DNA from: Bifidobacterium actinocoloniiforme DSM 22766
Lineage (GTDB): Bacteria; Actinomycetota; Actinomycetes; Actinomycetales; Bifidobacteriaceae
Assembly: GCF_001263395.1 (NCBI RefSeq)
Contig: NZ_CP011786.1
Coordinates: forward strand, 1,736,001-1,800,000
Direction of reading: 5' to 3'
DNA: 64,000 nt
Shown one piece after another: positions 1 to 59,385 of the stretch; within the stretch, counting starts at the first letter, position 1, and each line of letters starts with the position of its first letter. The notes under the pieces are model-generated. The model was not told the origin of the DNA and did not search any database. It worked only from the letters and a program-made list of their open reading frames with translations. The position numbers and the translations under genes were made by a program.

Positions 1-441
1 GGTTTGCAGGTCATCGCCGTGATTACGGTCATCACCACCATCGGCGCCTCGGCGATCTCCGGCCCGCTCTCTGATTTCCTGCACCGTCGCAAGATCATCG
101 TCGCCGCCTCCACAGTGCTCTTTGCCATCGGCTTGGCTGTCCCCATCTTCATGCCCACCGTGACCGGCATGTACATCTACGCGGCCTTGGCCGGCATCGC
201 GAACGGCTGCTACATGTCCGTGGACCAGGCCCTCAACGTGGACGTACTGCCCAACCCCGATGAGGCAGGCAAGGACCTCGGCATTCTCAACCTGGCCAAT
301 ACACTCGGGCAGATCCTGGCACCGGTCTTCACCACCAGGGTCATCGCCATCACCGGCGGGTATAAGATGGTCTTCCCCGTGGCCATCGTGTTCCTGTTGG
401 TGGGTGCCTTCTTCATCATGACCATCCGTAAAGTCAAGTGA
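1..441 (+). CDS. MFS transporter, C-terminal part (5' end outside window)
   Basis: The frame is open from base 1, so this is the last ~146 codons of a longer gene. The translation has hydrophobic membrane segments and a cytoplasmic loop reading GPLSDFLHRRK, which fits the Gx3(D/S)xxGRR-type loop of major facilitator proteins. The end of the protein is a membrane segment followed by a short basic tail. It stops 83 bases before a GH3 beta-glucosidase on the same strand. I infer that it imports a glycoside or oligosaccharide that the next enzyme cleaves. The substrate cannot be read from this fragment. Confidence 0.85.
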   Translation, partial: GLQVIAVITVITTIGASAISGPLSDFLHRRKIIVAASTVLFAIGLAVPIFMPTVTGMYIYAALAGIANGCYMSVDQALNVDVLPNPDEAGKDLGILNLANTLGQILAPVFTTRVIAITGGYKMVFPVAIVFLLVGAFFIMTIRKVK

Positions 442-524
442 TCCAAGTAAGCAGCAAGTGAGATTCGCAGGCCGCCCCCACGTGTCCGAACAGCTGCTGG
501 AGGCGGCAGGTGGAAAGGAACATC

Positions 525-2765
525 ATGAGTGAACCAACGCATGTGAACTCCAGCGACCTGAGCTTGGAGGAGGAGGCGAGCCTCACATCGGGTTCGGACT
601 CCTGGCACGTCCAGGGCCTGCCCGACCGGGGGCTTGAGGGGTACATGATCACCGATGGGCCCTATGGTCTGCGCAAGGCCAAGGACTCCTCGTCCACGGA
701 CGTGTATGGCTCCGTGCCCGCTACCTGTTTCCCCCCGACCGCTGGCCTGGCCTCGTCCTGGAACCCTGAACTGACCTACAAGGTGGGCCAGGCCATGGGC
801 GAGGAGTGCGTGCAGGAGAAGGTCGCGGTCATTCTGGGCCCCGGCGTCAACATCAAACGCAGCCCCTTGGGCGGACGCGACTTCGAATACTGGTCCGAGG
901 ACCCGGTGCTGACAGGGCATCAGGCGGCCGAGTTGGTCGAGGGCGTGCAGTCCCAGGGAATCGGAACCTCAGTCAAGCACTTCGCCGCCAACAACCAGGA
1001 GACCGAACGCTTGCGGGCAAGCTCCGACATGGATGAACGCACCCTGCGCGAGATTTACCTTCCGGCTTTCGAATACATCGTCAAGAAAGCCAAGCCCTGG
1101 ACCCTCATGTGCGCCTACAACAGGCTTAACGGGGTCTTTGGCTCCGAGGACGGCCGACTCATGACCGATATCCTCCGTGGCGAATGGGGCTTCGACGGCA
1201 TCGTCATGTCGGACTGGGGCGCCGTCCACAACCGCGCGGCCGCCCTCAACGCGGGTCTCAATCTGGAGATGCCGCCCTCGGACAGCGATGATCAGGTCGT
1301 CGCCGCGGTCAAGGCCGGCGAACTGAGCAAGGAACAGCTCGACAAGATGGCCCAAGGCATGATCGATCTGATTGAGAAGGCCAAGCCCGCCATGTCCCGT
1401 GACGGCTACCGCTACGACGTTCAGGCCCACAACCAGGTGGCCCGTCAGGCCGCCTGTGAATCCGTGGTCATGCTCAAGAACGAGGACGGGATCCTGCCCT
1501 TGCGCTCCAACGAGAAGATTGCGGTCATCGGCGAGTTCGCCAGGACCCCCCGTTACCAGGGCGGCGGGTCTTCACACATCTCGCCGACGATGGTCACTAC
1601 AGCCTTGGAGGCCTTCGAGAACTCCAGCATGGAGGTGAGTTTCGCGCCCGGGTTCACCCTGGATGAGGAGCCTCAGGATGAAGCCCTGACCAACGAGGCC
1701 CTGCAGGCCGCCAGCAAGGCCGACAAGGTCGTGCTCTTCCTTGGCCTGCCCGAAGAGGCGGAGTCCGAGGGCTTCGACCGCACCAGCCTTGACATGCCGG
1801 CGAAGCAGGTGGGGCTGCTGGGCAAGGTCAGCGCCGTCAACCCGAATGTGGTCGTGGTCCTATCCAATGGATCCGTGGTCAGCCTGACCGATTGGCTGCC
1901 ACAGGCCAAGGGAGTGCTCGAGGCTTGGCTCCTGGGCCAGGCTGGGGGTCAGGCCGTCGTCGACCTCCTGACCGGACGGGCCAACCCCTCGGGCAAGCTG
2001 GCCCAAACCATACCCCTCCGTTTGAACGACGACCCCACAGTGCTGAACTTCCCTGGGGAGGAAGGGCATGTCAACTATGGTGAGGGTGTCTTCGTGGGTT
2101 ACCGCTATTACGACACCCTCGACAAGCCTGTGCTCTTCCCGTTCGGATTCGGCCTCTCCTACTCTGATTTCGAGGTCAGCGGCGTGCAGGTGGAGAAGAC
2201 CGGCGCGAACGCGGCCCGCGTCCATGCCACGGTGACCAACACCTCCCAGGTGGATGGCGCCGAGACCTTGCAGGTCTACGTGGCCCCAGGCAAGGCCAAG
2301 GTCAACCGCCCCGCCCATGAGTTAAAGGCCTTCAGCAAGGTCTTCCTCAAGGCCGGGGAGTCCAAGGCCGTCTCGATGGACTTGGATGAGCGCGACTTCG
2401 CTTATTGGTCCAGGATCATGAAGGACTGGCATATCGAAGCCGGCGATTACGGCATCGAACTGGCGACTTCCTCGCGAGATATCGTCCAGACCGTCACCAT
2501 CCATATCGATGGTGACGGTAAGACTTTCCGCCTGAATGAGGAATCCAGCATGCAGGAGTGGGAGGAGGACCCGATTGGGTCCCCCATCCTGAGCGCCAAG
2601 CTCAAGGAGCTGGAGGCGGATGGCGTCCATCTGCCCGATGATCCGAACACCATGGTGCTGTTCCGCACCATGCCCATGGGGACGGTCGTCACCTTCTCCG
2701 GCGCCAACGGCCGCCAGGTGATCAAGGATCTGATGGCTTCCTATAAGGCGGCATTGGCGAAGTAG
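525..2765 (+). CDS. Glycoside hydrolase family 3 beta-glucosidase
   Basis: A 746-residue cytoplasmic GH3 enzyme that should release terminal beta-linked glucose (or a related sugar) from glycosides. The N-terminal barrel contains the family motif KHFAANNQE and the nucleophile region IVMSDWGAVH, with Asp about residue 230. A C-terminal fibronectin-III-like domain follows (GAETLQVYVAP region). There is no signal peptide. I chose ATG 525 because an AAGGAA Shine-Dalgarno lies just upstream; the in-frame GTG at 510 has none. The MFS gene upstream suggests a transport-plus-hydrolysis pair. Exact sugar specificity is not evident. Confidence 0.93.
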   Translation: MSEPTHVNSSDLSLEEEASLTSGSDSWHVQGLPDRGLEGYMITDGPYGLRKAKDSSSTDVYGSVPATCFPPTAGLASSWNPELTYKVGQAMGEECVQEKVAVILGPGVNIKRSPLGGRDFEYWSEDPVLTGHQAAELVEGVQSQGIGTSVKHFAANNQETERLRASSDMDERTLREIYLPAFEYIVKKAKPWTLMCAYNRLNGVFGSEDGRLMTDILRGEWGFDGIVMSDWGAVHNRAAALNAGLNLEMPPSDSDDQVVAAVKAGELSKEQLDKMAQGMIDLIEKAKPAMSRDGYRYDVQAHNQVARQAACESVVMLKNEDGILPLRSNEKIAVIGEFARTPRYQGGGSSHISPTMVTTALEAFENSSMEVSFAPGFTLDEEPQDEALTNEALQAASKADKVVLFLGLPEEAESEGFDRTSLDMPAKQVGLLGKVSAVNPNVVVVLSNGSVVSLTDWLPQAKGVLEAWLLGQAGGQAVVDLLTGRANPSGKLAQTIPLRLNDDPTVLNFPGEEGHVNYGEGVFVGYRYYDTLDKPVLFPFGFGLSYSDFEVSGVQVEKTGANAARVHATVTNTSQVDGAETLQVYVAPGKAKVNRPAHELKAFSKVFLKAGESKAVSMDLDERDFAYWSRIMKDWHIEAGDYGIELATSSRDIVQTVTIHIDGDGKTFRLNEESSMQEWEEDPIGSPILSAKLKELEADGVHLPDDPNTMVLFRTMPMGTVVTFSGANGRQVIKDLMASYKAALAK

Positions 2766-2796
2766 CCTTCCTGGCATCCACCCAGGCGTCCTCGCC

Positions 2797-2843
2797 GGTT
2801 GCGCCCCATCCCGACTGCATCTCAGTCTGGATGGGGCGCAACC
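2797..2843. terminator. Bidirectional hairpin terminator between convergent genes
   Basis: Perfect 15-bp arms (2797-2811 and 2829-2843) enclose a second 5-bp stem (GACTG/CAGTC). The hairpin sits between the end of the GH3 gene and the end of the convergent lipoprotein gene. There is no clear T tract, so its strength is inferred from the stem alone. Confidence 0.7.
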
Positions 2844-2866
2844 GTTATGGCCTCGGTCCCGGGGCG

Positions 2867-3820
2867 TTACTCGTTCGGGGCCGTCGATTCCTGGACGAAG
2901 GAGAGCAAGGCCTGAGGAAAGGCAGGGTAGCCCTGGCTGAGGGCGGTGTAAGTATGGGCCGTAGCCAAGAGGGAGAGGGTGCGTAGGGTGGACTCATGCT
3001 CGTGGCAGGCGGGCGTTGGGCCTTCGGAACGGTCGTCGCGACCTTGGCTGGCGGTGCCGAAGCCGTCGGCGTCCTGGACGGTGGAGACAGCGGAGCGGAA
3101 GACCTGGGTGAGGGAGCGGGCGCAATTGACCTCCACCACCGATTCGGTGGGCGCTTCCAGACCGTTGGCCGGGTCGGTCATGGTCTGTGGATGCTTGAGG
3201 AGCTTCTGAACGGAATAGACGGCTTGACGGGGGTCTGCGGTAGGGTCGGCCGAGGCCAGTGTCTGGGCGGCCTCATGGTGGCGGTCGCCGACCGATAGGA
3301 GGGCTTGGTCGCCTCCTGGCCGCCGACCGGCCAGGAGGATGAGCGAGAAACCGGATTCGTCCTCCGCCTTGGCGGCATCGGACACCTGTACGGGGTTCAA
3401 GAGGCGGGCCGCAGCGGGCAGGCTCTGTACCGCCTGTGTGGTCAGGGTTCCTGGGTCTTCGACGGTGGCGGACAAGGGGCTGGCGGGGGTCTGCTGCGCC
3501 CGGGTGTGGGCGGTCATCCACGCCAAGGCCGAGCGGTTGACGGCTTCGTCGAAACGGGTGGGGCAGCGGACGGTCACATCCTGCCAAGTCTGGGCGGCCG
3601 CAAGGGGCAGGATGATTCGGGCACCGGCGGCGCTGGTGAAGAAGGGATCCGCGGCGCGCCGGGTGAGCAAGCGGGCGTCGGTCCAAGCGCGGTCGCAGGA
3701 GCTCAGGCTCAAGTTGTCCTGGTGGGGATCCACCCGCTGGATGGCGATTGGGGAAGCGCAACCGGAGGCTGTAACGAATACGCCCAACAGGAGCAGGAGG
3801 CAGCGGCGGAACCGGCCCAT
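2867..3820 (-). CDS. Putative lipoprotein of unknown function
   Basis: I do not recognise the family. From ATG 3820 the protein has 317 residues and starts with a short basic N-end, a run of leucines and a lipobox-like ASGC, which suggests export and lipid anchoring. The rest is mostly soluble and alanine-rich with no repeats. An earlier in-frame start at 3877 gives 336 residues but puts 19 residues ahead of the signal sequence, so the later start is preferred; neither has a good ribosome-binding site. It stands alone, divergent from nusA and convergent with the GH3 gene. Confidence 0.6.
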   Translation of the reverse strand: MGRFRRCLLLLLGVFVTASGCASPIAIQRVDPHQDNLSLSSCDRAWTDARLLTRRAADPFFTSAAGARIILPLAAAQTWQDVTVRCPTRFDEAVNRSALAWMTAHTRAQQTPASPLSATVEDPGTLTTQAVQSLPAAARLLNPVQVSDAAKAEDESGFSLILLAGRRPGGDQALLSVGDRHHEAAQTLASADPTADPRQAVYSVQKLLKHPQTMTDPANGLEAPTESVVEVNCARSLTQVFRSAVSTVQDADGFGTASQGRDDRSEGPTPACHEHESTLRTLSLLATAHTYTALSQGYPAFPQALLSFVQESTAPNE

Positions 3821-16077: not shown

Positions 16078-16216
16078 CGCGCCTGACCGCAGGCGCTCGC
16101 GAGCGTTCCGGAGGCCAGTAAGGGGTGGCGCTAGACTGGGAATCGTTACATTTCGGAGAGCCGCGCCTGAAAGACTGTCGGAGCGGATGGCTGCAAGCAC
16201 GGGAAAAGGGGTGGTT

Positions 16217-17305
16217 ATGAAGCGGTCGAGGAAAGCGGCCAGTGGACGGGAGCGTGCCTTAGGCCAAGCCGAATCCAGCCTGACTCCTCAGCTCTCACCT
16301 TCCCAAACCTGGCCGTCGCAATCGGCCGAGTCGGCCTCCCGCAGTACGACCAGGCAAGCGCGGATTAGGTTGAACGACCAGTCGGGCGCGTTAATCATCT
16401 ACCTGGTGGTCATGCAGCTGATCGGGCCAGCTGTGGCCGCGGCCCTGATCGTCATCTTGCAGAGCATGCGCAAGCAGATGGTGTCGGTCGATACTGTCGT
16501 CTCGCAGATCGACGGCAAGTACGCAGGGGTGATGAACCTCGTCTGCGCGGCCACCGCTTTCGTCTTCTGGATCGCCACCCACAAGCGTCAGATCGCCGAC
16601 CCGGGCCCCGACGGGGTCTTCCACCGCCGTCTGCGCCGGATGACCCCCTGGGTGCTCCTGGGCTGCATGGCCCTGCTCCTGACCGGCCAGTCCTTGAGCA
16701 CCATCTACGACCAGGGCTTCAACTGGGTCATCCACCGACTGTCTCTCAGGGCCACGACCTCCTCCGAGATGATCGAGGCCGCGTCCGGCTCCACGGCCAT
16801 GTTCCTCTATGTCTCCTTCTTTGGACCGGTCGTCGAGGAAGTGGTTTTCCGGGGCGTGATCATGAACAGCCTCAAGCCCTACGGCAAGGTCTTCGCCATC
16901 ATCACTTCGTCAACCATGTTCGCCTTCTTCCATTCCGACATTTCCCAGGGGCTTTTCGCCTTCTGCATTGGGCTGGTCCTGGGCTATGTGGCCTGCGAGT
17001 ACTCGATTTTCTGGTCCATCCTCCTGCACATAGCGAACAACCTGCTGATTTCCAACCTGGGTTCCATGGCCGTGTCGAGCCTGCCCGGCCCCGCCAAGGA
17101 CTGGGTCGACCCGGTCCTGTTGGTCGGCGGCCTCCTTTTGGGCGCCTTGGTCCTCTACCTGGCCCGGGGGCGCGTCCGTGGCTTCATCCTGGCCAACCGC
17201 GCCAGCAAGGGGATTTACGCCTCCTGGGGCGGCTTGTGGTTCATTGTCTACCTCATCCTGCAAATCCTCGTCACGGCAATGGAGTTCGCGCCGTCTGTGT
17301 CGTGA
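16217..17305 (+). CDS. CPBP-family intramembrane glutamic endopeptidase (second copy)
   Basis: A 362-residue paralogue of the preceding gene. The motifs are EEVVFRG, FAFFH and HIANN, and the two proteins share segments along their full length (for example ADPGPxGVF and YASWG). ATG 16217 follows AAAAGGGG and is preferred to the frame start at 16187. The N-terminal ~60 residues are Ser/Arg/Gln-rich and cytosolic. It probably arose by tandem duplication. A run of 13 C begins one base after the stop codon. Confidence 0.85.
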   Translation: MKRSRKAASGRERALGQAESSLTPQLSPSQTWPSQSAESASRSTTRQARIRLNDQSGALIIYLVVMQLIGPAVAAALIVILQSMRKQMVSVDTVVSQIDGKYAGVMNLVCAATAFVFWIATHKRQIADPGPDGVFHRRLRRMTPWVLLGCMALLLTGQSLSTIYDQGFNWVIHRLSLRATTSSEMIEAASGSTAMFLYVSFFGPVVEEVVFRGVIMNSLKPYGKVFAIITSSTMFAFFHSDISQGLFAFCIGLVLGYVACEYSIFWSILLHIANNLLISNLGSMAVSSLPGPAKDWVDPVLLVGGLLLGALVLYLARGRVRGFILANRASKGIYASWGGLWFIVYLILQILVTAMEFAPSVS

Positions 17306-17306
17306 T

Positions 17307-17319
17307 CCCCCCCCCCCCC
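17307..17319 (+). repeat. Homopolymer run of 13 C
   Basis: Thirteen C in a row start two bases after the TGA of the second CPBP gene and lie about 185 bases before murA. The run is outside every gene I accept. It is one of three runs of 13 or more G/C in the window. Confidence 0.9.
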
Positions 17320-22793: not shown

Positions 22794-25700
22794 TCAAGGT
22801 TGCGTGTGATGAAGGCGGAGTGTATGTGGGCTTTGGCGCTGTTTACGGGCCTTCGAGAGCTGGTAGCCTGCGAGAGTGACCCCTGCGAGACAAGTGAAGG
22901 CGATGAACGTTGTTCCGATGAGCCCGTGGAAGGGGATACTGCCGGCTCGGGGGAGGGTGTAGGGAATGTAGATGTAGGTGAAATCGTGGATGGGGTAGTC
23001 GGTTTGCGCTACGCCATCCAAGGTCCAGGTGACGATGACGGGGACTGGGCCTCCCGAGTCGTATCTGGGCGAGGTGACGTTCCAGGTGCTGGCACCGTCG
23101 TTGGGTGTGGGGCCGCTTTGGGCTGGAGCAGTACCGAACTTGACGGCAGTGATGTTGATGTTGTAGAACATGCCTGTGCTCACGGGGGTGAGGCTTATTT
23201 TGCCTGGCCCGCCTTGCTTATCGCCGAGTTGTCCGTATTGGTTGTCTCCCCAGGTCCAGACTCCACCGGTGGTGTCTACTCCGATGGTGTGTTTCCAACC
23301 GGAGAGGAGTTTGGCGAACGTGGTACCGGGCTTAGGGTTAACCACGATGGGCCGGGTTGGGGTGGTTTGGCTACCGGTACCAAGTTGGCCGGAGGCGTTG
23401 TCGCCCCATGCGTAGATGCTCCCGTTGCTGGCGATGCTCATGGCGCTGTCGCTGCTGGTGGTCACGCTGGTGAAGGTGATACCAGCGGGTAGGGTCGGTT
23501 CGGCTGGTAGTTGCTGATTTGTGGTGGTGCCGTTGCCGAGCTCGTAGTCGTTGTTGTACCCCCACGTGTAAATGCGCCCAGTGTCGCTGATAGCGAGTGA
23601 CCAATCCGCGGTAGCGGTGGCCTGCTTGAAGGTGCTCACGCCAACGGGTAGTTGCACTTGTACGGGCACGGCGCTGCTGCCGCCCACGTTGATGACACTG
23701 GTTCCCAGTTGTCCGAATTGGTTGGACCCCCAACTATAAGCCTGCCCGTTATCTCCGATGCCGATGGAGTGCCCGGCGGCAGCACTGACTTGGGTGAACT
23801 GGTAGACGCCAGCTGGCATCTGCACCGCTACCGGACTGAGCTGGTTAATGGTGGTATTGTCGCCAAGCTGTCCGCTGTTGTTGGCTCCCCACGCATAGGT
23901 GGTACCGTTGTCGCCTATGGCGAGAGTATGGTCTACGCCTGGACTGACCTGCCTGTACGCGCCCACGCCAGCAGGCATGCTGATCGGCAGAGGTTGCAAC
24001 TGGTTATTAGTGGTCCCGAGACCCAATTGACCACTCGTATTAAACCCCCACGCGTACCAGCGGTTATCGCTACCCAGTGCGAACGAGTTGTTAGGGCCTG
24101 CACTGACTTTCAGGAACTTCACCCCGTTTGGCGTGACTGCCTTCGTGGGTTGCAGCCGGCTGGTGATGCTGTTGTCCCCAAGCTGCCCGGCATCGTTTTC
24201 CCCCCACGCGTACAGGTCACCATCAGAGCCGATAGCGAGTGTGTGATACCAACCTGCTGATACTTGGGTAAACTGCACACTTGACGTTGCAGGATGCGGG
24301 GTGATGGTGACACTGGTGCCACCACTGTTAGGCCCTCGATTCGGGTCCATCGTGAACGTGAAGGCTGGTTTTTCCCAACGAGCGGTCAAGGTAATGTTGC
24401 TCGTGACTGGCTCGTTAAACGTGTAGGGCTTGTTGTCGAGGAACCAGCCCACAAACCGATGCCCATTCCAGGATGGTTGCGTTGGCCATGCTGCTTTCGA
24501 GTTTTCCTCCACGTGCTGAGGACTTGGCGTGCTACCAGGAGCGGCACCCAGGTTAAAACTGACAGTAAACGTATCCAAGTAATGGTACTTCAATGTCTCA
24601 TTCGGTTGCGCAACCTCATTCAAGGTCCAACTCACTACCACATCCACATCCCCCGGAGCATGGGGCGGGGTGTTCCCTGTCCAAATACTCGACACATCAG
24701 TCACCGTACCCGGCGTAGCGATACCCCCAAACGTAACCCGAGTAATCCTAATCGGCCCACCCACACGTACCGGAGTACTGCTATTGGTGGTGCTACCGTC
24801 GCCGAGATTCGCGAGTTCACCAAGTCCCCAGCTGTAGGTGTTGCCGTCGCTACCAATAGCGAAAGAGTTCCAGTAGCCGGCTGTGACACTGACAAAGGTT
24901 ACTCCTACTGGTACTTGCACCGTAACTGGTGTTGTAACATTTTCTGAGCTGTTGTTGCCGAGTTCAGTATAGTAGTTGCTTCCCCATGCGTATGTTTTGT
25001 GGTCGCTTCCTATAACGAGGGTGTGCCAGCCGTTGCTGCTGCGTTGTACGATATGCACTCCAGCTGGCATGCGAAGTGTGACCAGTGTTGGCGTGTGTTT
25101 TTCGGCTGTGGGCTCGCTTGGATAGGTTGAGGTTCCGTCCCCATACTGGCCACCTATGCGATTGGCTCCCCATGCGTAGTTGTTGCCGTCATTAGTGGTA
25201 GCGAAGGCTGTGTATCCGCCTGCGGTGATGCTAGTCCATCGAAGGCCGTTAGGAGGGTTTACCGGAAAGGCGGAAGTGCGGTTAGTGGTGTCACCGGTGC
25301 CTAGCTGACCATATTCGTTGTCTCCCCAGGTGTAGATGACGCCATTGTCGCCTAGTGCCATGCTGAAATAGGCAGCTGCGCTGATGCTAATAATGCGAAC
25401 TGTGCCCGGAATGCCAGCAACCAGCGTGGGGCTGGAACGCATTACCGTATCACCAACTCCAAGCTGGCCACCGCCCGAAACGTTGTTAATCGATGTATCG
25501 TTGCAGCCCCACGCGTAGACTTTGCCGTTGTCGCCGATAGCGAGGTTGAAGTCGGCCCCGGCATTGATTTGGGTGAATCGGTTCACGCCTGCGGGTAGTG
25601 GCTGTATTTTGGTGGGAATAAGGCGGTTGTTAGTATCTCCTAAACCCGATTGGCCCCTATTATTCAGGCCCCAAGTGTAGATATAGCCATCGGTGCCTAG

Positions 25701-26106
25701 AGCTATCGAATGTCCGTAAAAGCCTGCGCTTATTTCGGTGAATTTGATGCCTGCTGGTGTTTGTATGCGCACGGGTGCGAGTCGTTGAGTGTTGGTGTCG
25801 TCGCCCAGCTGGCCGTACTGGTTGTCTCCCCAGGCGTAAGCGTTGCCATCATCGCCGAGAGCCAGCGTGTGATAGTAACCAGAACTAATAGTTGTGAATT
25901 TCACGCCACCTATGGTGTAGGGGTTGATGGTAGCCCTTGTGCCTCCGGCGGCAGGGCCTGATTTAGGGGACAGCCGGAAGTGGTTGGAGGTTTCGTCAGC
26001 GCGCACTGGAGTGGGATGGATCAGTGAACTAGCTGCTCCCCCCCCCCCCCAGGACAATCATGGAGATAAGCGCCAGTATGGCGCTTGCTGTGCGAAACCG
26101 TCGCAT
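22794..26106 (-). CDS. LPxAG-anchored RCC1-propeller surface protein, phase-OFF by a G13 run
   Basis: A wall-anchored protein of about 1103 residues when in frame. The signal peptide MRRFRTASAILALISMIVL starts at ATG 26106 after a GAGGAG site, but a G13 run at 26038-26050 shifts the frame and a TAG ends the product after 25 codons. The remaining frame is intact and begins around an internal TTG at 26057. With 12 or 15 G the protein reads through to a cleavage-like PVRADE. Then follow an IPT/TIG-like entry (SPKSGPAAGGT), seven RCC1 blades, the second part of that domain (VTFGG), a Flg_new repeat (FVGWFLDNKPY), a second GPNSGGT entry, seven more blades, an Ig-like end and LPRAG plus a hydrophobic segment and basic tail. 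Binding target unknown. Alternatives are a sequencing error in the run or a true pseudogene. Confidence 0.8.
26038..26050 (-). repeat. G13 run in the signal-peptide codons (probable slippage switch)
   Basis: Thirteen G on the coding strand directly follow codon 18 of the signal peptide. Frame arithmetic shows that 12 or 15 G join the signal peptide to the propeller frame and 13 does not. The paralogue has six G at the matching place. Confidence 0.9.
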
Positions 26107-26473: not shown

Positions 26474-29400
26474 TCACCTGCCGCTGGTGGTTGTTGTGGT
26501 GGTGGTGGGTTGGTGGGTGTGGTGGTGTTTGCGGGTGATGTGGTGGCTGGTGAGGGTGAGGGCGGTGAGGGTGGTGAGGGTGAGGAGGGTGGCTCCCGCG
26601 AGTTGTTGGGTGGGGGCGCCGCCTGCTTTGGGCAGGGTGTAGTAGTGGGTGTAGTCGTAGGTGAGGGTGTAGTCGGGTTGGGTGGCGCCGTCGAGGGTCC
26701 AGTGGATGGTGACGGTGGCTTGTCCTTCGGGGTGGGTTGGGCTGGTGGTGTCCCAGGTGTGGGTGGTGGGGTTCCAGGTGGGTGTGGGGGCGTTGGTGGG
26801 CTCGAAGGTGGTGCCGGTGATGGTGATGGCGCGTGTGGTTGGGGTGGGGGTGTGTCGTTCGGTGGTGGTGGTGTCGCCGAGTTGGCCGTAGCCGTTGGCT
26901 CCCCAGCTGTAGGCGTGCCCGTCCGTCGCGATGGCGAGGCTGTGCCAGCCGCCGGCGCTGATGGCGGTCCAGGTGGCGGTGCCGTCGGCGGCCGGGCTGG
27001 CGGGCGCGGGCGTGTTGCGGTCGCTGCTGCCGCCGTCGCCGAGCTGGCCGTTGCTGTTCCATCCCCAGCTGTAGGCGTGGCCGTCGCCGCTGATGGCGAG
27101 GCTGTGCCAGCCGCCTGCGCTGATGGCGGTCCAGGTGTCGGTGGGGTTGCCGCTGGCGGGGGCGTGGACGGGCGCGGGCGTGTTGCGGTCGCTGCTGCCG
27201 CCGTCGCCGAGTTGGCCGTTTCTGTTCCATCCCCAGCTGTAGGCGTGCCCGTCCGTCGCGATGGCGAGGCTGTGGTTGGAGCCTGCGCTGATGGTTTTCC
27301 ACGTGTTGGCGGGGTTGCCGCTGTCGGGCGCGTGGACGGGCGCGGGCGTGTTGCGGTCGCTGCTGCCGCCGTCGCCGAGCTGGCCGTTTCTGTTCCATCC
27401 CCAGCTGTAGGCGTGCCCGTCCGTCGCGATGGCGAGGCTGTGGTAGTTGCCTGCGCTGATGGTTTTCCACGTGTTGGCGGGGTTGCCGCTGTCGGGCGCG
27501 TGGACGGGCGCGGGCGTGTTGCGGTCGCTGCTGCCGCCGTCGCCGAGCTGGCCGTTGCTGTTGCGCCCCCAGCTGTAGGCGTGCCCGTCCGTCGCGATGG
27601 CGAGGCTGTGGTAGTAGCCGGCGCTGATGGTTTTCCACGTGTTGGCGGGGTTGCCGCTGGCGGGGGCGTGGACGGGCGCGGGCGTGTTGCGGTCGCTGCT
27701 GCCGCCGTCGCCGAGCTGGCCGTTGCTGTTGCGCCCCCAGCTGTAGGCGTGGCCGTCGCTGCTGATGGCGAGGCTGTGGTAGTTGCCTGCGCTGACGCTG
27801 GTGAACCGCACGCCTGGGGGCGTGTTCACGCGTACGGGCGCGCTGCTGTCGTTGGTGGTGCCGTCGCCGAGCTGGCCGTTGAAGTTGTACCCCCAGGCGT
27901 AGGTGTTGCCGTCGGTGCCGATGGCCAGGCTGTGGTAGGTGCTGGCGCTGACCTGGGTGAACCGCAGGGGCCGCGGCGGGTCGGGGGGCGTGATGTGGAC
28001 GGTGGTGCCGCCGGTGTCCGGGCCCCGGGTGGGGGTCATGGTGAATTGCGGGGTCCTCCATTTGGCGGTCAGGGTCATGTTGGAAGTGACGGGCGTGTTG
28101 AAGTTCCACAGGCTGCCGTCGGGTTTGGCCCACCCGTCGAACCAGTGGCCCGCCCAGGCCGGGTCGGGCTCGGGGTAGGTGATGGGCCGCGGGTCGTCCG
28201 GGTACGAGTACTGGCTGGCGGGCGCCTGGCTGGTGGTGTGCCCGGCGGCGTCGCCCAGTTGGAAGCTGACGGTGTACGCTGTGGCGTACGTGTAGTTCAG
28301 GGTGACCGTGCCGGACTGGTAGTTGGGGCTGGCGACCCTGCCGTTCACGTCGAGGCCGTCGAGATGGTAGGCGACGGTCACGTCGACGGCGCCCGGGGTA
28401 TGCTGGGGCACGTGCATGTCCCGCGCGCCGGTGGTGGCGTTGACGGTCTTACTGGCGACGCTTGCCCCGCCGAAGGTGACGTTGTCGATCACATACCGGG
28501 GCGTGAGCATCGTCGCGGGCTTGCTGTGGGGGTTGGTGGTGCCGTCGCCCAGCTTGCCGTATTCGTTGTATCCCCAGCTGTAGGCGTGGCCGTCCGAGTC
28601 GAGGGCCAGGCTGTCATAGTAGGCTGCGCTGATTTGGGTGAAGCGCGCGCCGGCTGGCGCGTGCACGAGCACCGGTTTGCTGCTGTTGCTAGTGGTTTCG
28701 TCGCCCAGCTGGCTGAGCATGTTGTTTCCCCATGCGTAGGTGTTGCCGTCCGATCCGATGGCCAGGCTGTGGTAGAAGCCTGCGCTGATTTGGGTGAAGC
28801 GCGCGCCGGCTGGCGTGTGCACGCGCACCGGTTTGTTGCTGTCGCTACCGGTTTCGTCGCCCAGCTGGCCGTAAGTGTTGTATCCCCATGCGTAGGTGTT
28901 GCCGTCCGATCCGATGGCCAGGCTGTGGTAGTAGCCTGCGCTGATTTGGGTGAAGCGCGCGCCGGCTGGCGTGTGCACGCGCACCGGTTTGTTGCTGTCG
29001 CTACCGGTTTCGTCGCCCAGCTGGCGGAACACGTTGCTTCCCCATGCGTAGGTGTTGCCGTCCGATCCGATGGCCAGGCTGTGCCAGTTGCCTGCGCTGA
29101 TTTGGGTGAAGCGCACGCCGGCTGGCGCGTGCACGCGCACCGGTTTGCTGCTGTCGCTAGGGGTTTCGTCGCCCAGCTTGCCGTAGCTGTTGCTTCCCCA
29201 AGCGTAGGTGTTGCCGTCGGAGCCGATGGCGAGGCTGTGATCGTTGCCTGCGCTGATTTGGGTGAAGGTCACGCCGGTTGGCGCGTGCACGCGCACCGGT
29301 TTGCTGCTGTCGCCACCGGTTTCGTCGCCCAGCTGACCGGAGTCGTTGCTTCCCCAGGCGTAGGTGTTGCCGTCCGAGCCGATGGCCAGGCTGTACTCGT

Positions 29401-29815
29401 AGCCTGCGCTGATTTGGGTGAAGCGCACGCCGGCTGGCGCGTGCACTCGCGTGGGCGTGCTGTGGGTGCTGCGGTCGGTGGCGGTGTCGTCGCCTAACTG
29501 GCCAACGAGGTTGCCTCCCCATGCGTAGGTGTTGCCGTCCGAGCCGATGGCCAGGTTATGCCAGCAGCCTGCGCTGATTCGGGTGAAGCGCAGGTTGGTT
29601 GGCGGGGCTGGTGGTGTGAGTGTGGCGGTGGCGTCTTGGTTGGCGGGGCCTTTGGTGGGGGTGAGGGTGAAGCCGTTCACGGTTTGCGAGGCGGGGGCTC
29701 CTGATCGGGTCAGGTGGTTGGGTTCAGCGTGGGCGGGCCGGGCCGCCGCGTTGCCCCCCAGGAGGATCATGGCCAGGGCCGCGAATGCGGCGCTGGCGGC
29801 GCGGAAACGACTCAT
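26474..29815 (-). CDS. LPxAG-anchored RCC1-propeller surface protein (in frame)
   Basis: A 1113-residue wall-anchored protein, intact. Its signal peptide MSRFRAASAAFAALAMILLG ends near PAHAEP, and ATG 29815 has a GGAGGGGG site. An IPT/TIG-like entry (TPTKGPANQDATATLTPP, about 52-69) leads to seven RCC1 blades of ~52 residues (about 77-442), then NVTFGGAS and further strands of the Ig-like domain to ~510, a Flg_new/InlB-type repeat (HWFDGWAKPDG, about 512-586), a second entry (TPTRGPDTGGTTV), seven more blades of 52-56 residues, a closing Ig-like part, and LPKAG at 1061 with a hydrophobic segment and a His/Lys/Arg tail. RCC1 proteins form seven-bladed propellers, so each block should make one whole propeller. 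Ligand unknown; host attachment is only a guess. No sortase gene is in the window. Confidence 0.85.
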   Translation of the reverse strand: MSRFRAASAAFAALAMILLGGNAAARPAHAEPNHLTRSGAPASQTVNGFTLTPTKGPANQDATATLTPPAPPTNLRFTRISAGCWHNLAIGSDGNTYAWGGNLVGQLGDDTATDRSTHSTPTRVHAPAGVRFTQISAGYEYSLAIGSDGNTYAWGSNDSGQLGDETGGDSSKPVRVHAPTGVTFTQISAGNDHSLAIGSDGNTYAWGSNSYGKLGDETPSDSSKPVRVHAPAGVRFTQISAGNWHSLAIGSDGNTYAWGSNVFRQLGDETGSDSNKPVRVHTPAGARFTQISAGYYHSLAIGSDGNTYAWGYNTYGQLGDETGSDSNKPVRVHTPAGARFTQISAGFYHSLAIGSDGNTYAWGNNMLSQLGDETTSNSSKPVLVHAPAGARFTQISAAYYDSLALDSDGHAYSWGYNEYGKLGDGTTNPHSKPATMLTPRYVIDNVTFGGASVASKTVNATTGARDMHVPQHTPGAVDVTVAYHLDGLDVNGRVASPNYQSGTVTLNYTYATAYTVSFQLGDAAGHTTSQAPASQYSYPDDPRPITYPEPDPAWAGHWFDGWAKPDGSLWNFNTPVTSNMTLTAKWRTPQFTMTPTRGPDTGGTTVHITPPDPPRPLRFTQVSASTYHSLAIGTDGNTYAWGYNFNGQLGDGTTNDSSAPVRVNTPPGVRFTSVSAGNYHSLAISSDGHAYSWGRNSNGQLGDGGSSDRNTPAPVHAPASGNPANTWKTISAGYYHSLAIATDGHAYSWGRNSNGQLGDGGSSDRNTPAPVHAPDSGNPANTWKTISAGNYHSLAIATDGHAYSWGWNRNGQLGDGGSSDRNTPAPVHAPDSGNPANTWKTISAGSNHSLAIATDGHAYSWGWNRNGQLGDGGSSDRNTPAPVHAPASGNPTDTWTAISAGGWHSLAISGDGHAYSWGWNSNGQLGDGGSSDRNTPAPASPAADGTATWTAISAGGWHSLAIATDGHAYSWGANGYGQLGDTTTTERHTPTPTTRAITITGTTFEPTNAPTPTWNPTTHTWDTTSPTHPEGQATVTIHWTLDGATQPDYTLTYDYTHYYTLPKAGGAPTQQLAGATLLTLTTLTALTLTSHHITRKHHHTHQPTTTTTTTSGR
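27013..27852 (-). repeat. Tandem 168-bp repeats encoding RCC1 blades of the second propeller
   Basis: The same anchor sequence recurs at 27013, 27181, 27349, 27517 and 27685, an exact 168-bp period (56 codons). Units are nearly identical in DNA, differing mainly at the positions that vary between blades. Confidence 0.9.
28539..29474 (-). repeat. Tandem 156-bp repeats encoding RCC1 blades of the first propeller
   Basis: An anchor around GTTTCGTCGCCCAGCTGG recurs every 156 bases (28695, 28851, 29007, 29163, 29319). The boundaries of the array are approximate. Confidence 0.85.
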
Positions 29816-29838
29816 TGCCCCCTCCAAAACAGGCTGGC

Positions 29839-56399: not shown

Positions 56400-58310
56400 T
56401 CAAGCCTTCCCTTGCTGCTCGGGCCGCGGTGCCTGGCCGTCGGCCCCGTGGGTTGAGCCCTGGGCCGCCAGCGGGGTGACACCCGGCCGGTAGACGATTT
56501 CGCTGTTCGAGGCGCCCGGGGGCACGACCGGCCACACCTGGGCATCCTTCCAGACGCGCATGTCGATGAGGACCGGCCGGTCGTTGACGGCCAAGGCCCG
56601 CTCGATCGCGCCGGTGACCTCCTGGCGGTTGCTGGCCCTGATGCCAAGGCAGTCGTAGGATTCGGCCAGCTTGACGAAGTCCGGCACCGGCAGCCCCGGG
56701 CCGTCCGCCGGGCCGGCTGCGCCGGAAGCCAGGTCGCTCAGGATGTGGTGGTCCCCGTAGAAGAGGGTCTGCCACTGGCGAATCAGGCCGTAGGAGGCGT
56801 TGTCGAGGATTGCGATTTTGAGGGGGAGTCCCTCCTGGCGGGCCACGGCCAGCTCGCCGCTGGAGGCCTGGAAGCCGCCGTCGCCCTCGATCAGCCAGAC
56901 CGGACGGGAGCCTGCGACGCCCACTGTCGCGCCGATCGCGGCCGGTAGCCCGAAGCCCATGGTCCCCATGCCGCAGGAGGAGATGAAGGAGCCAGGGAGC
57001 TCGAAGTCCAGGAAGAGGCTGGCCCACATCTGATGCTGGCCTACGTCCGTGACCCATAGGGTGTCCGGCGAGGCCAGGCGGCCCAGCTCCTGAATGGCCC
57101 ACTGCGGCTCGACCTGGCCGTCGGGGGCCGGGTCGTAGGTCGATGGGAACCGCGAGCGCCAGGCGTCGATCTGCCGCCACCAGGGGGCCAAGTCGGTTCG
57201 GCCCAGGCGCTCTTGGACGCGGGGGAACTCCCGGTTCAGGTCGGTCAGCACTTGGGCAGCATCGCCTACGATAGGCACGTCAACGGTCCGGTTCTTGCCG
57301 ATTTCGGCCGGGTCGATGTCAATGTGGATCACCTTGGCGGCAGGGGCGAAACTCTCCAGGTCGCCGGTCACCCGGTCGTCGAAGCGGGCGCCGACCGCCA
57401 GCAGGAGGTCGCACTCCTGCATGGCGCCGTTCGCCGCCACTGTGCCATGCATACCGGGCATGCCGAGCACGTGCTGGTCGCTGTCAGGCACGATCCCGCG
57501 GGCGGATAGGGTGGTCGTGACCGGGGCGCCGGTCAGCTTCGCCAGCTGCGCCACCTGCTCGGAGGCGTGGGCCCGGGTCGCGCCTCCGCCCACGTAGATC
57601 ACCGGCCGGTACGCGCGGGCCAGGAGTTCGGCCGCGTCCTGGAGCATGTGCCCGTGGGCCTTGGTGGTGGGTTTGTAGCCCGGCAGAATCATCCGCTGGG
57701 GCCAGGAATAAGCCATGCTTTGGGTTTGGGCGGTGTAGGGCAAGTCGATCAACACCGGGCCAGGCCGTCCGCTGAGGGCCACATAGTAGGCCTCGGTCAG
57801 CACGCGGGGGATGTCCTGGGCCTGGGTGACCAGGTAGGAGTGCTTGACCACTGGGTAGGTCATGCCCAGTATGTCCGCCTCCTGGAAGGCGTCCGTGCCC
57901 ATGGCCTCGGCCCCCACTTGGCCGCTGACCACTATCAGGGGCACCGAGTCGCGGGCCGCCTCCGCGATGGGGGTCACCATATTCGTGGCCCCTGGCCCGG
58001 AGGTGACCAGGCAGACACCCGGCTGGCCGACGGCCAACGCATAGCCTTCAGCGGCCTGACCGGCGGCCTGCTCGGTGCGGGTCAGGACGAAGCGGAACTT
58101 CGTGTCTGGGCCGATCGCGTCGAAAGTCGGCAGAATCTGGCCGCCGGGCAGGCCGAAGACCACCTTGACGCCCAAGTCCTCCAAGGAGCGGACGAGGGCC
58201 TGGGCCCCGGTCATCGGCTCGCCGGCGGGCTCCGCATCGCGCGCGGTGTCTTTGTCTGACGGCTCCTTGGGAACCGAGTTGAATGCTTGCAGAGGTGTCG
58301 GCAGTGCCAT
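56400..58310 (-). CDS. ilvB: Acetolactate synthase large (catalytic) subunit
   Basis: A 636-residue thiamine diphosphate enzyme that makes acetolactate/acetohydroxybutyrate, the first common step to valine, leucine and isoleucine. The catalytic Glu region (FVLTRTEQAAGQAAEGYA) is N-terminal, and the ThDP motif GDGGFQ...NN is in the C-terminal third (ending IAILDNASYG). The start is ATG 58310 after GATAGGAG; a TTG just before it is not used. It lies downstream of rnc. Confidence 0.95.
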   Translation of the reverse strand: MALPTPLQAFNSVPKEPSDKDTARDAEPAGEPMTGAQALVRSLEDLGVKVVFGLPGGQILPTFDAIGPDTKFRFVLTRTEQAAGQAAEGYALAVGQPGVCLVTSGPGATNMVTPIAEAARDSVPLIVVSGQVGAEAMGTDAFQEADILGMTYPVVKHSYLVTQAQDIPRVLTEAYYVALSGRPGPVLIDLPYTAQTQSMAYSWPQRMILPGYKPTTKAHGHMLQDAAELLARAYRPVIYVGGGATRAHASEQVAQLAKLTGAPVTTTLSARGIVPDSDQHVLGMPGMHGTVAANGAMQECDLLLAVGARFDDRVTGDLESFAPAAKVIHIDIDPAEIGKNRTVDVPIVGDAAQVLTDLNREFPRVQERLGRTDLAPWWRQIDAWRSRFPSTYDPAPDGQVEPQWAIQELGRLASPDTLWVTDVGQHQMWASLFLDFELPGSFISSCGMGTMGFGLPAAIGATVGVAGSRPVWLIEGDGGFQASSGELAVARQEGLPLKIAILDNASYGLIRQWQTLFYGDHHILSDLASGAAGPADGPGLPVPDFVKLAESYDCLGIRASNRQEVTGAIERALAVNDRPVLIDMRVWKDAQVWPVVPPGASNSEIVYRPGVTPLAAQGSTHGADGQAPRPEQQGKA

Positions 58311-58330
58311 CAAGCTCCTATCCCCTCGTT

Positions 58331-58396: not shown

Positions 58397-58411
58397 GGGG
58401 GGGGGGGGGGG
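58397..58411. repeat. Homopolymer run of 15 G (C on the ilvB strand)
   Basis: Fifteen consecutive G lie between the end of rnc and the start of ilvB. It is outside both coding regions and about 60 bases upstream of the ilvB -10 box. Confidence 0.9.
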
Positions 58412-58497: not shown

Positions 58498-59385
58498 CTA
58501 CGCCTCCTGCTTGGACTGTTCTTCCTGGGCGAGCTCCCGCTCCTCGGCTTGCTCCTGCTTGAGCGCTTTCAGGGCGCTGGGTCCATCCAAGGCCTTCCAC
58601 GCCTGTTCGGCGGCGGCCAGCTGGGCCTTGCGCTTGCTGGAGGCCCGTCCGTGGCCGATGACCGAGTGGGTGCCCTCTAAAACCAGGTCCGCTGTGAAGA
58701 CCTGGGCGTAGTCCGGTCCGGAGACCGCCATCCGGTACTCGGGTTGGCCTAATCCCGACTGGCGGGCTTTCACGCTGATTGAGGTCTTCCAGTCCAAGGC
58801 CGGGCCTTCGGTGGCCACTTCCGCCAGCGTGTCGTCCACCAGCGTGTGGACGGTCTTGCGGGCGCCCTCGATGCCGTGTTCGATGAAAACCGCGCCGATC
58901 AGCGCCTCGACTGTGTCGCACAGGATCGAGTTCTTGTCCGATCCGCCGGACTCCGCTTCGCCCCGGCCCAGCAGGATGTACTGGCCCAAGTGGAGCTTGC
59001 TGCGGGCTATGGCGGACAGGGAGTCCTCCGAGACGGCCTTGGCCCTCATCTTGGCCAGCTGGCCCTCGTTCATGCTTGGATGGTCCTTGTACAGGGTTTC
59101 GGTGGAGACCAGCTCCAGCACCGCGTCGCCCAGGAACTCCAAGCGCTCGTTATTGGGCATCCCCTCGTGCTCGTGGGCGAAGGAACGATGGGTGAGCGCA
59201 TGGATCAGCAGGTCCGGCTTGAGGGATTGCCCCAGGGCCTTGAAGAGCTCCCTGGCGGGCAGCTCCTGGCTAGCGGTCCCGTCTTGCGCCTCCTGGCTGC
59301 CCGCCGCCTCGGTCCGCATGGCGGCTTGCGTCGACCTGCCGTGCGTTTCGCTCCCCTGCGCTTCGTCGTGACTTGATGAGGTCAT
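58498..59385 (-). CDS. rnc: Ribonuclease III
   Basis: A 295-residue double-stranded RNA endonuclease for rRNA and mRNA processing. The signature NERLEFLGDAVLEL is present, and a dsRNA-binding domain covers about residues 200-270. About 45 residues of Ser/Glu/Thr-rich sequence precede the catalytic domain and a Glu/Gln/Lys tail follows the dsRBD. ATG 59385 follows AGGAGCGG. It lies after rpmF, as in other actinobacteria. Confidence 0.94.
   Translation of the reverse strand: MTSSSHDEAQGSETHGRSTQAAMRTEAAGSQEAQDGTASQELPARELFKALGQSLKPDLLIHALTHRSFAHEHEGMPNNERLEFLGDAVLELVSTETLYKDHPSMNEGQLAKMRAKAVSEDSLSAIARSKLHLGQYILLGRGEAESGGSDKNSILCDTVEALIGAVFIEHGIEGARKTVHTLVDDTLAEVATEGPALDWKTSISVKARQSGLGQPEYRMAVSGPDYAQVFTADLVLEGTHSVIGHGRASSKRKAQLAAAEQAWKALDGPSALKALKQEQAEERELAQEEQSKQEA

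Follow-up and report, generated by a model that had tools for sequence, protein, structure and literature searches.

Poly-G contingency loci are known from Neisseria, Campylobacter and Helicobacter, where, as with the meningococcal haemoglobin receptors, intragenic tracts switch surface structures at many loci per genome (PMC3786947). In bifidobacteria, an ON/OFF switch of this kind has been demonstrated experimentally for the sortase-dependent pili of Bifidobacterium breve UCC2003 (bbr_0113 and bbr_1889). There, a poly-G tract in the 5' part of the gene joins a Sec signal and an LPXTG-bearing part that lie on two different frames, productive slippage follows -1+3n, and the usual state is one G too many (PMC9187656). 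The bifidobacteria of bees also carry surface proteins composed of RCC1 repeats, Flg_new and a C-terminal wall anchor, in 7-24 copies per genome in honeybee strains and in 10 reported copies in B. actinocoloniiforme (PMC4449606, PMC3447821). A text search of these two papers returned no mention of phase variation or homopolymers, and no report linking poly-G switching with the RCC1 family of bee bifidobacteria was found in searches of an open-access library.

The stretch analysed here, referred to as the window, comprises 64,000 nucleotides of the chromosome of B. actinocoloniiforme DSM 22766T (CP011786), a bumblebee gut bacterium sequenced by Illumina MiSeq and HiSeq with gap closing by PCR (PMC4582582). 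It includes an RCC1 gene whose signal peptide is interrupted by a run of 13 G (Table 1). The initial annotation of this locus had described an intact signal peptide and an intact propeller frame linked only via that run, and translation bears this out, the propeller frame extending over 1,080 codons with no internal stop. Translation from the ATG at 26106 through 13 G gives MRRFRTASAILALISMIVLGGGGSS followed by a stop, which is the 25-residue peptide ended by TAG that had been proposed, while with 9, 12, 15 or 18 G the propeller frame is read in register (...GGGGAASSLIHPTPVRA/DE...). The arithmetic by which 12 or 15 G would restore a full-length exported protein with a PVRADE cleavage site is thus correct, with cleavage predicted after PVRA at about 25998/25997 (PVRA/DE), and the gene is ON at 9, 12, 15 or 18 G and OFF at 10, 11, 13, 14, 16 and 17. 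The claim of a paralogue with six G at the same site, in frame, likewise holds. This tandem copy is apparently locked ON; its run is probably too short for frequent slippage, and it gives no Flg_new match at 0.001 in Pfam.

Table 1. Positions of the features of the focal gene and its tandem paralogue within the window
Feature	Position	Strand	Basis
Shine-Dalgarno-like GAGGAG, 7 nt 5' of the start codon	26114..26119	-	read off the sequence, GAGGAGTGCAATTATG
Start codon and n/h-region of the signal peptide (MRRFRTASAILALISMIVL...), 5' of the tract	26051..26106	-	translation; layout shared by 6 genes of the genome and dozens in relatives
G13 tract, putative slippage switch (13 C on the + strand)	26038..26050	-	sequence and frame count
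TAG stop reached with 13 G (off-frame, one G too many)	26029..26031	-	sequence and translation
TGA that ends translation at 11 or 14 G (other off-frame)	26021..26023	-	sequence and translation
Propeller frame 3' of the tract, with the remainder of the signal peptide, RCC1 propellers and one Flg_new	22794..26037	-	Pfam, dN/dS
LPRAG cell-wall sorting-type motif, then hydrophobic stretch and basic tail	22941..22955	-	sequence
Tandem paralogue, RCC1 propeller, in frame	26474..29827	-	ORF translation, Pfam
Run of six G in the paralogue, at the homologous codon	29754..29759	-	placed from ORF translation, ...ILLGGNAAARPAHAEP

In the propeller frame, Pfam matches were obtained for RCC1 (2.1e-142), WD40_RLD (8.8e-190) and Flg_new, the Listeria-Bacteroides repeat (3.9e-10), with 13 RCC1 stretches, and the combination of RCC1 repeats with Flg_new places the protein in the same family as the RCC1 proteins described in bee bifidobacteria (PMC4449606). 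The C-termini of the RCC1 genes of this genome carry LPKAG or LPRAG where LPxTG would be expected, then a hydrophobic stretch and a basic tail. Because of these LPxAG-type signals and of three sortase genes elsewhere in the chromosome, about 280-300 kb from the focal gene, the RCC1 proteins are presumed to be displayed on the wall, where their role in the bee gut may be one of adhesion or evasion. A sequence search among solved structures retrieved the RCC1-fold proteins UVR8, HERC2 and RCC1 itself, which are uninformative on the ligand. As to the role of the propeller, one may guess at adhesion, immune evasion or the avoidance of phage. A search around the gene for sigma-70-type promoters gave none, and the only terminator-like site nearby lies on the opposite strand and is no better than chance. 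An internal start at TTG 26057 was considered and rejected; it would yield the propeller frame minus most of the signal peptide, so that no export would be expected.

That slippage at poly-G runs switches bifidobacterial pili, as the initial annotation had noted, agrees with the B. breve work. In the pili and in the focal gene alike, the tract lies in the 5' part and joins a Sec signal and a sorting-signal part that occupy two frames, and the focal gene shares the -1+3n rule and the state of one G too many (PMC9187656). In contrast to the one or two B. breve pilus operons with a dedicated sortase, the genes considered here are stand-alone RCC1, LRR or Flg_new genes numbering 6 to 39 per bumblebee-type genome, and the focal gene encodes an RCC1 propeller protein rather than a pilin heading an operon with its own sortase. 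Unlike in the pili, moreover, the tract of the bumblebee-type set lies inside the signal peptide and stops close both off-frames. The likeness to Neisseria, Campylobacter and Helicobacter is in intragenic poly-G tracts that switch surface structures at many loci (PMC3786947), whereas here the host is a Gram-positive commensal without MutS, and the switch recurs throughout a single paralogous family, with a signal peptide that is also found on other folds.

The G13 run is very probably a contingency (phase-variation) switch driven by slippage, and one of a family of such switches. Replication slippage would add or remove one or more G, and so decide whether the start codon and the initial half of the signal peptide share a frame with the remainder and with the wall-anchored RCC1 beta-propeller. 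With a multiple of three G (12, 15) the whole protein would be made, exported and anchored, while at other lengths translation would end within a few codons at the stops present in both off-frames, which would make for a tight OFF state. Since each gene has a tract of its own, switching should be independent, and a clonal population could hold many surface combinations. Slippage is presumed to occur in living populations at useful rates. The reading of the locus as phase-variable, first proposed for a single gene, is supported by tracts across the family, tract lengths in orthologues, selection on the OFF frame, off-frame stops and the lack of MutS, and the set of putative switches appears to be genome-wide and clade-wide.

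By number alone, runs of G8 are unremarkable in the window, which holds 20 matches against 13.6 expected, a count reached in 13 of 100 shuffles. Despite this ordinary count, a chance run was rejected because the tract recurs at the same place in RCC1 genes. Among the 45 tracts of at least 9 G in the genome, six occupy the coding strand of RCC1 genes at around codon 19, in six of the seven members. Uniform scatter would place about 0.01 there by our own arithmetic, which treats paralogues that are not independent. In seven genes of the window, 16% of the glycine codons are GGG. At least seven RCC1 genes are present in the genome. Six have similar signal peptides, each with 11-13 G at the same codon, and the seventh is the G6 paralogue; one of the switch genes spans the start of the chromosome record and is hence split (L113, genome positions 1-3100, and L114, 1828000-1830060; tract neighbourhoods were read as separate genome stretches). 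The same layout, M-R-R-F-R-x-x-S-A-hydrophobic-V-L-G(n), was found in 39 genes of one related species (G007) and about 27 of another (G018). Most encode RCC1 proteins, and of seven others checked by Pfam five are leucine-rich-repeat (LRR) and two Flg_new proteins, indicating that a switch-bearing signal peptide is common to different folds. Tracts in frame, with one G too many and with one too few numbered 2, 1 and 3 in this genome (L011 being scored OFF, from its corrected start), 9, 26 and 4 in G007, and 20, 6 and 2 in G018, the last counts including one false positive (L119:6646) whose removal leaves 27 tract genes.

Comparison of orthologues points to tracts that change in length while the genes around them are kept. 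In G023 (taken as B. indicum, NZ_CP006018) and G026, RCC1 orthologues that belong to the family but do not represent the focal locus are 99.3% identical over 1,695 bp, with a single indel of 14 versus 13 G that sets the former OFF and the latter ON. In seven well-matched pairs between G007 and G018, length differed in six, the required phase was kept in six, and the state differed in all seven. The same two species allow the focal gene to be assessed for recent loss, in which case it would be a decaying, frameshifted pseudogene, as its being out of frame in the assembly might suggest. However, its 1,080 codons are free of stops, with signal peptide and anchor intact, and the OFF frame is under purifying selection: dN is 0.177 and dS 1.10 against the G018 orthologue over 1,061 codons (dN/dS about 0.16), and 0.216 and 1.24 against the G007 orthologue, which is also OFF (dN/dS about 0.17). 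The same seemingly broken state in many genes with intact frames is likewise not what decay would produce. On the dN/dS values and the intact frame this reading was rejected, and recent loss of the gene is extremely improbable.

The sequence just beyond the tracts also departs from the rest of these genes. In particular, both off-frames are stopped after a mean of 17 codons in this genome, 16.4 in G007, 9.6 in G018 and 7.3 in a set of honeybee-clade genes, whereas control positions elsewhere in these genes gave 62, 43, 37 and 65, respectively. Resampling, repeated 5,000 times, never produced a mean this low, although the effect size counts more than the P value since the genes are not independent through paralogy. 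In parallel, MutS_I was detected in none of 27 genomes of the genus and in 11 of 14 controls, and NucS, the alternative repair system of actinobacteria, leaves indels uncorrected (PMC8228993).

These observations bear on a very unlikely alternative, in which the tract is a sequencing or assembly error, its true length is 12 G and the gene is always in frame with no switch at all. Homopolymers are error-prone and the G-tract lengths held in databases are known to be unreliable (PMC9187656), so that in an Illumina assembly the focal tract could be mis-assembled; tract lengths are also nearly uniform in some relatives. An assembled length of 10 accounts for 26 of the 28 rows of G018, one of 11 for 31 of the 39 of G007 and one of 12 for 27 of the 45 honeybee genes, and such narrow distributions could reflect either sequencing technology or slow switching. 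Nevertheless, an error would leave unexplained the 10-13 G at one codon in six of seven paralogues and in dozens of genes of relatives, the early stops that close both off-frames and the single 14/13 indel between near-identical genes, which could itself be a miscall. The state of the focal gene, OFF at 13 G, is provisional, but an error at this one locus would alter its current state and not the design. Tracts with no long downstream open reading frame differ between G023 and G026 as well, at 14/11 (L251/L264), 10/15 (L253/L267), 11/12 (L254/L268), 10/12 (L257/L271) and 11/10 (L261/L273), indicating that slippage, or the miscalling of lengths, is general and extends beyond the switch genes.

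Besides the narrow length distributions, another feature of the data counts against the switch reading. Tracts with one G too many exceed one third in G007 (26 of 39) and in the honeybee set (27 of 43), which is not what simple random drift predicts. The excess, and the clustering by species, may arise from an equilibrium length of each species, from selection in culture for OFF tracts that a single deletion would turn ON, or from length calls specific to a technology. As these causes are inseparable here, slippage at the level of expression was kept as a rival. Long homopolymers can slip during transcription, and if RNA polymerase or the ribosome slipped on the G tract, a fixed fraction of in-frame product would be made at any DNA length, the tract being a dosage device instead of a heritable switch and the excess of one G the set point for omitting one. 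Yet lengths and states vary among orthologues and paralogues and the required phase varies among genes, which argues that no single offset is kept; ribosomal -1 shifting would require the opposite offset; and the same architecture in B. breve depends on DNA length (PMC9187656). We consider slippage during expression to be very unlikely.

A second arrangement of the tract, consistent with the contingency switch, is present in the honeybee clade. A preliminary view that honeybee species have no tracts, based on counts of the TCYTG9 pattern, was wrong, as their tract lies after the signal peptide and in another context. Indeed, in B. asteroides, B. apousia, B. mizhiense, B. polysaccharolyticum and relatives the tract of RCC1 genes sits 3' of the signal peptide and is followed by the near-invariant TCGTCAGACCCCTCGCGTAGCTAAG, a pattern present in 11 of the 27 genus genomes in 1-16 copies each, while the same pattern reversed, as a control, had no match among the 27. 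In addition, GTAGCTAAG supplies a stop to each off-frame, TAG to one and TAA to the other. The 45 honeybee-clade tract genes have lengths of 11-17; the state was scored for 43 of them, of which 9 proved to be in frame and 27 to carry one G too many. The genes of B. indicum type provide a third flanking context.

The conservation of this module invites the reading that tract and following sequence are kept as an anchor for recombination or gene conversion by which surface domains are swapped, frame switching being a by-product. The honeybee module (G8 and TCGTCAGACCCCTCGCGTAGCTRA) is near-identical across different signal peptides in 11 species, and one type of signal peptide is found on RCC1, LRR and Flg_new proteins. 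Under such an anchor, however, one would expect neither unbroken G tracts that differ in length nor the closure of both off-frames by stops, and it is unlikely as the explanation of the tracts, even though it may be true alongside switching. About 25 bases after the tract are near-invariant despite different signal peptides (L220-L249, L282-L311), and this stretch could also serve recombination between surface genes. We hold with some reservation to a broader reading, in which a portable poly-G cassette, made up of start, signal peptide, G tract and stops in both off-frames, has spread over the unrelated RCC1, LRR and Listeria-Bacteroides-repeat folds, so that a genome may carry as many as about 40 independent switches. 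The cassette would have at least two forms at different positions, a bumblebee type and a honeybee type, and would confer combinatorial surface switching on a genus without MutS.

Poly-G switching, including that of bifidobacterial pili, and the RCC1 family were known; the family-wide occurrence, the several folds, the placement of the tract in the signal peptide in one lineage and the built-in off-frame stops appear to be new. If the switch reading is true, the symbionts of bees vary their surface in a way familiar chiefly from mucosal pathogens, the lineages examined here having 6 to about 39 switches per genome, and each cell may show a different surface. RCC1 genes of bee bifidobacteria that look frameshifted would then be switched off, not broken, and genomes represented by a single consensus may misreport the surface proteins that are made. 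It would also provide a testable handle on the function of these abundant RCC1 proteins in the bee gut, be it adhesion, strain competition, or immune or phage avoidance.

Long G or C runs are also found outside surface genes. A C13 run at 17307-17319 begins two bases past the stop of an open reading frame for a CPBP-like membrane protein (16187-17305), about 180 bases ahead of a murA-like frame (17503), and is possibly a contingency tract of a promoter or leader. A G15 run at 58397-58411 lies between ilvB-like (56400-58313, -) and rnc-like (58498-59385, -) frames. Elsewhere in the genome (L028, 967946-967994), G15 and G11 runs about 23 bases apart have no long open reading frame over them.
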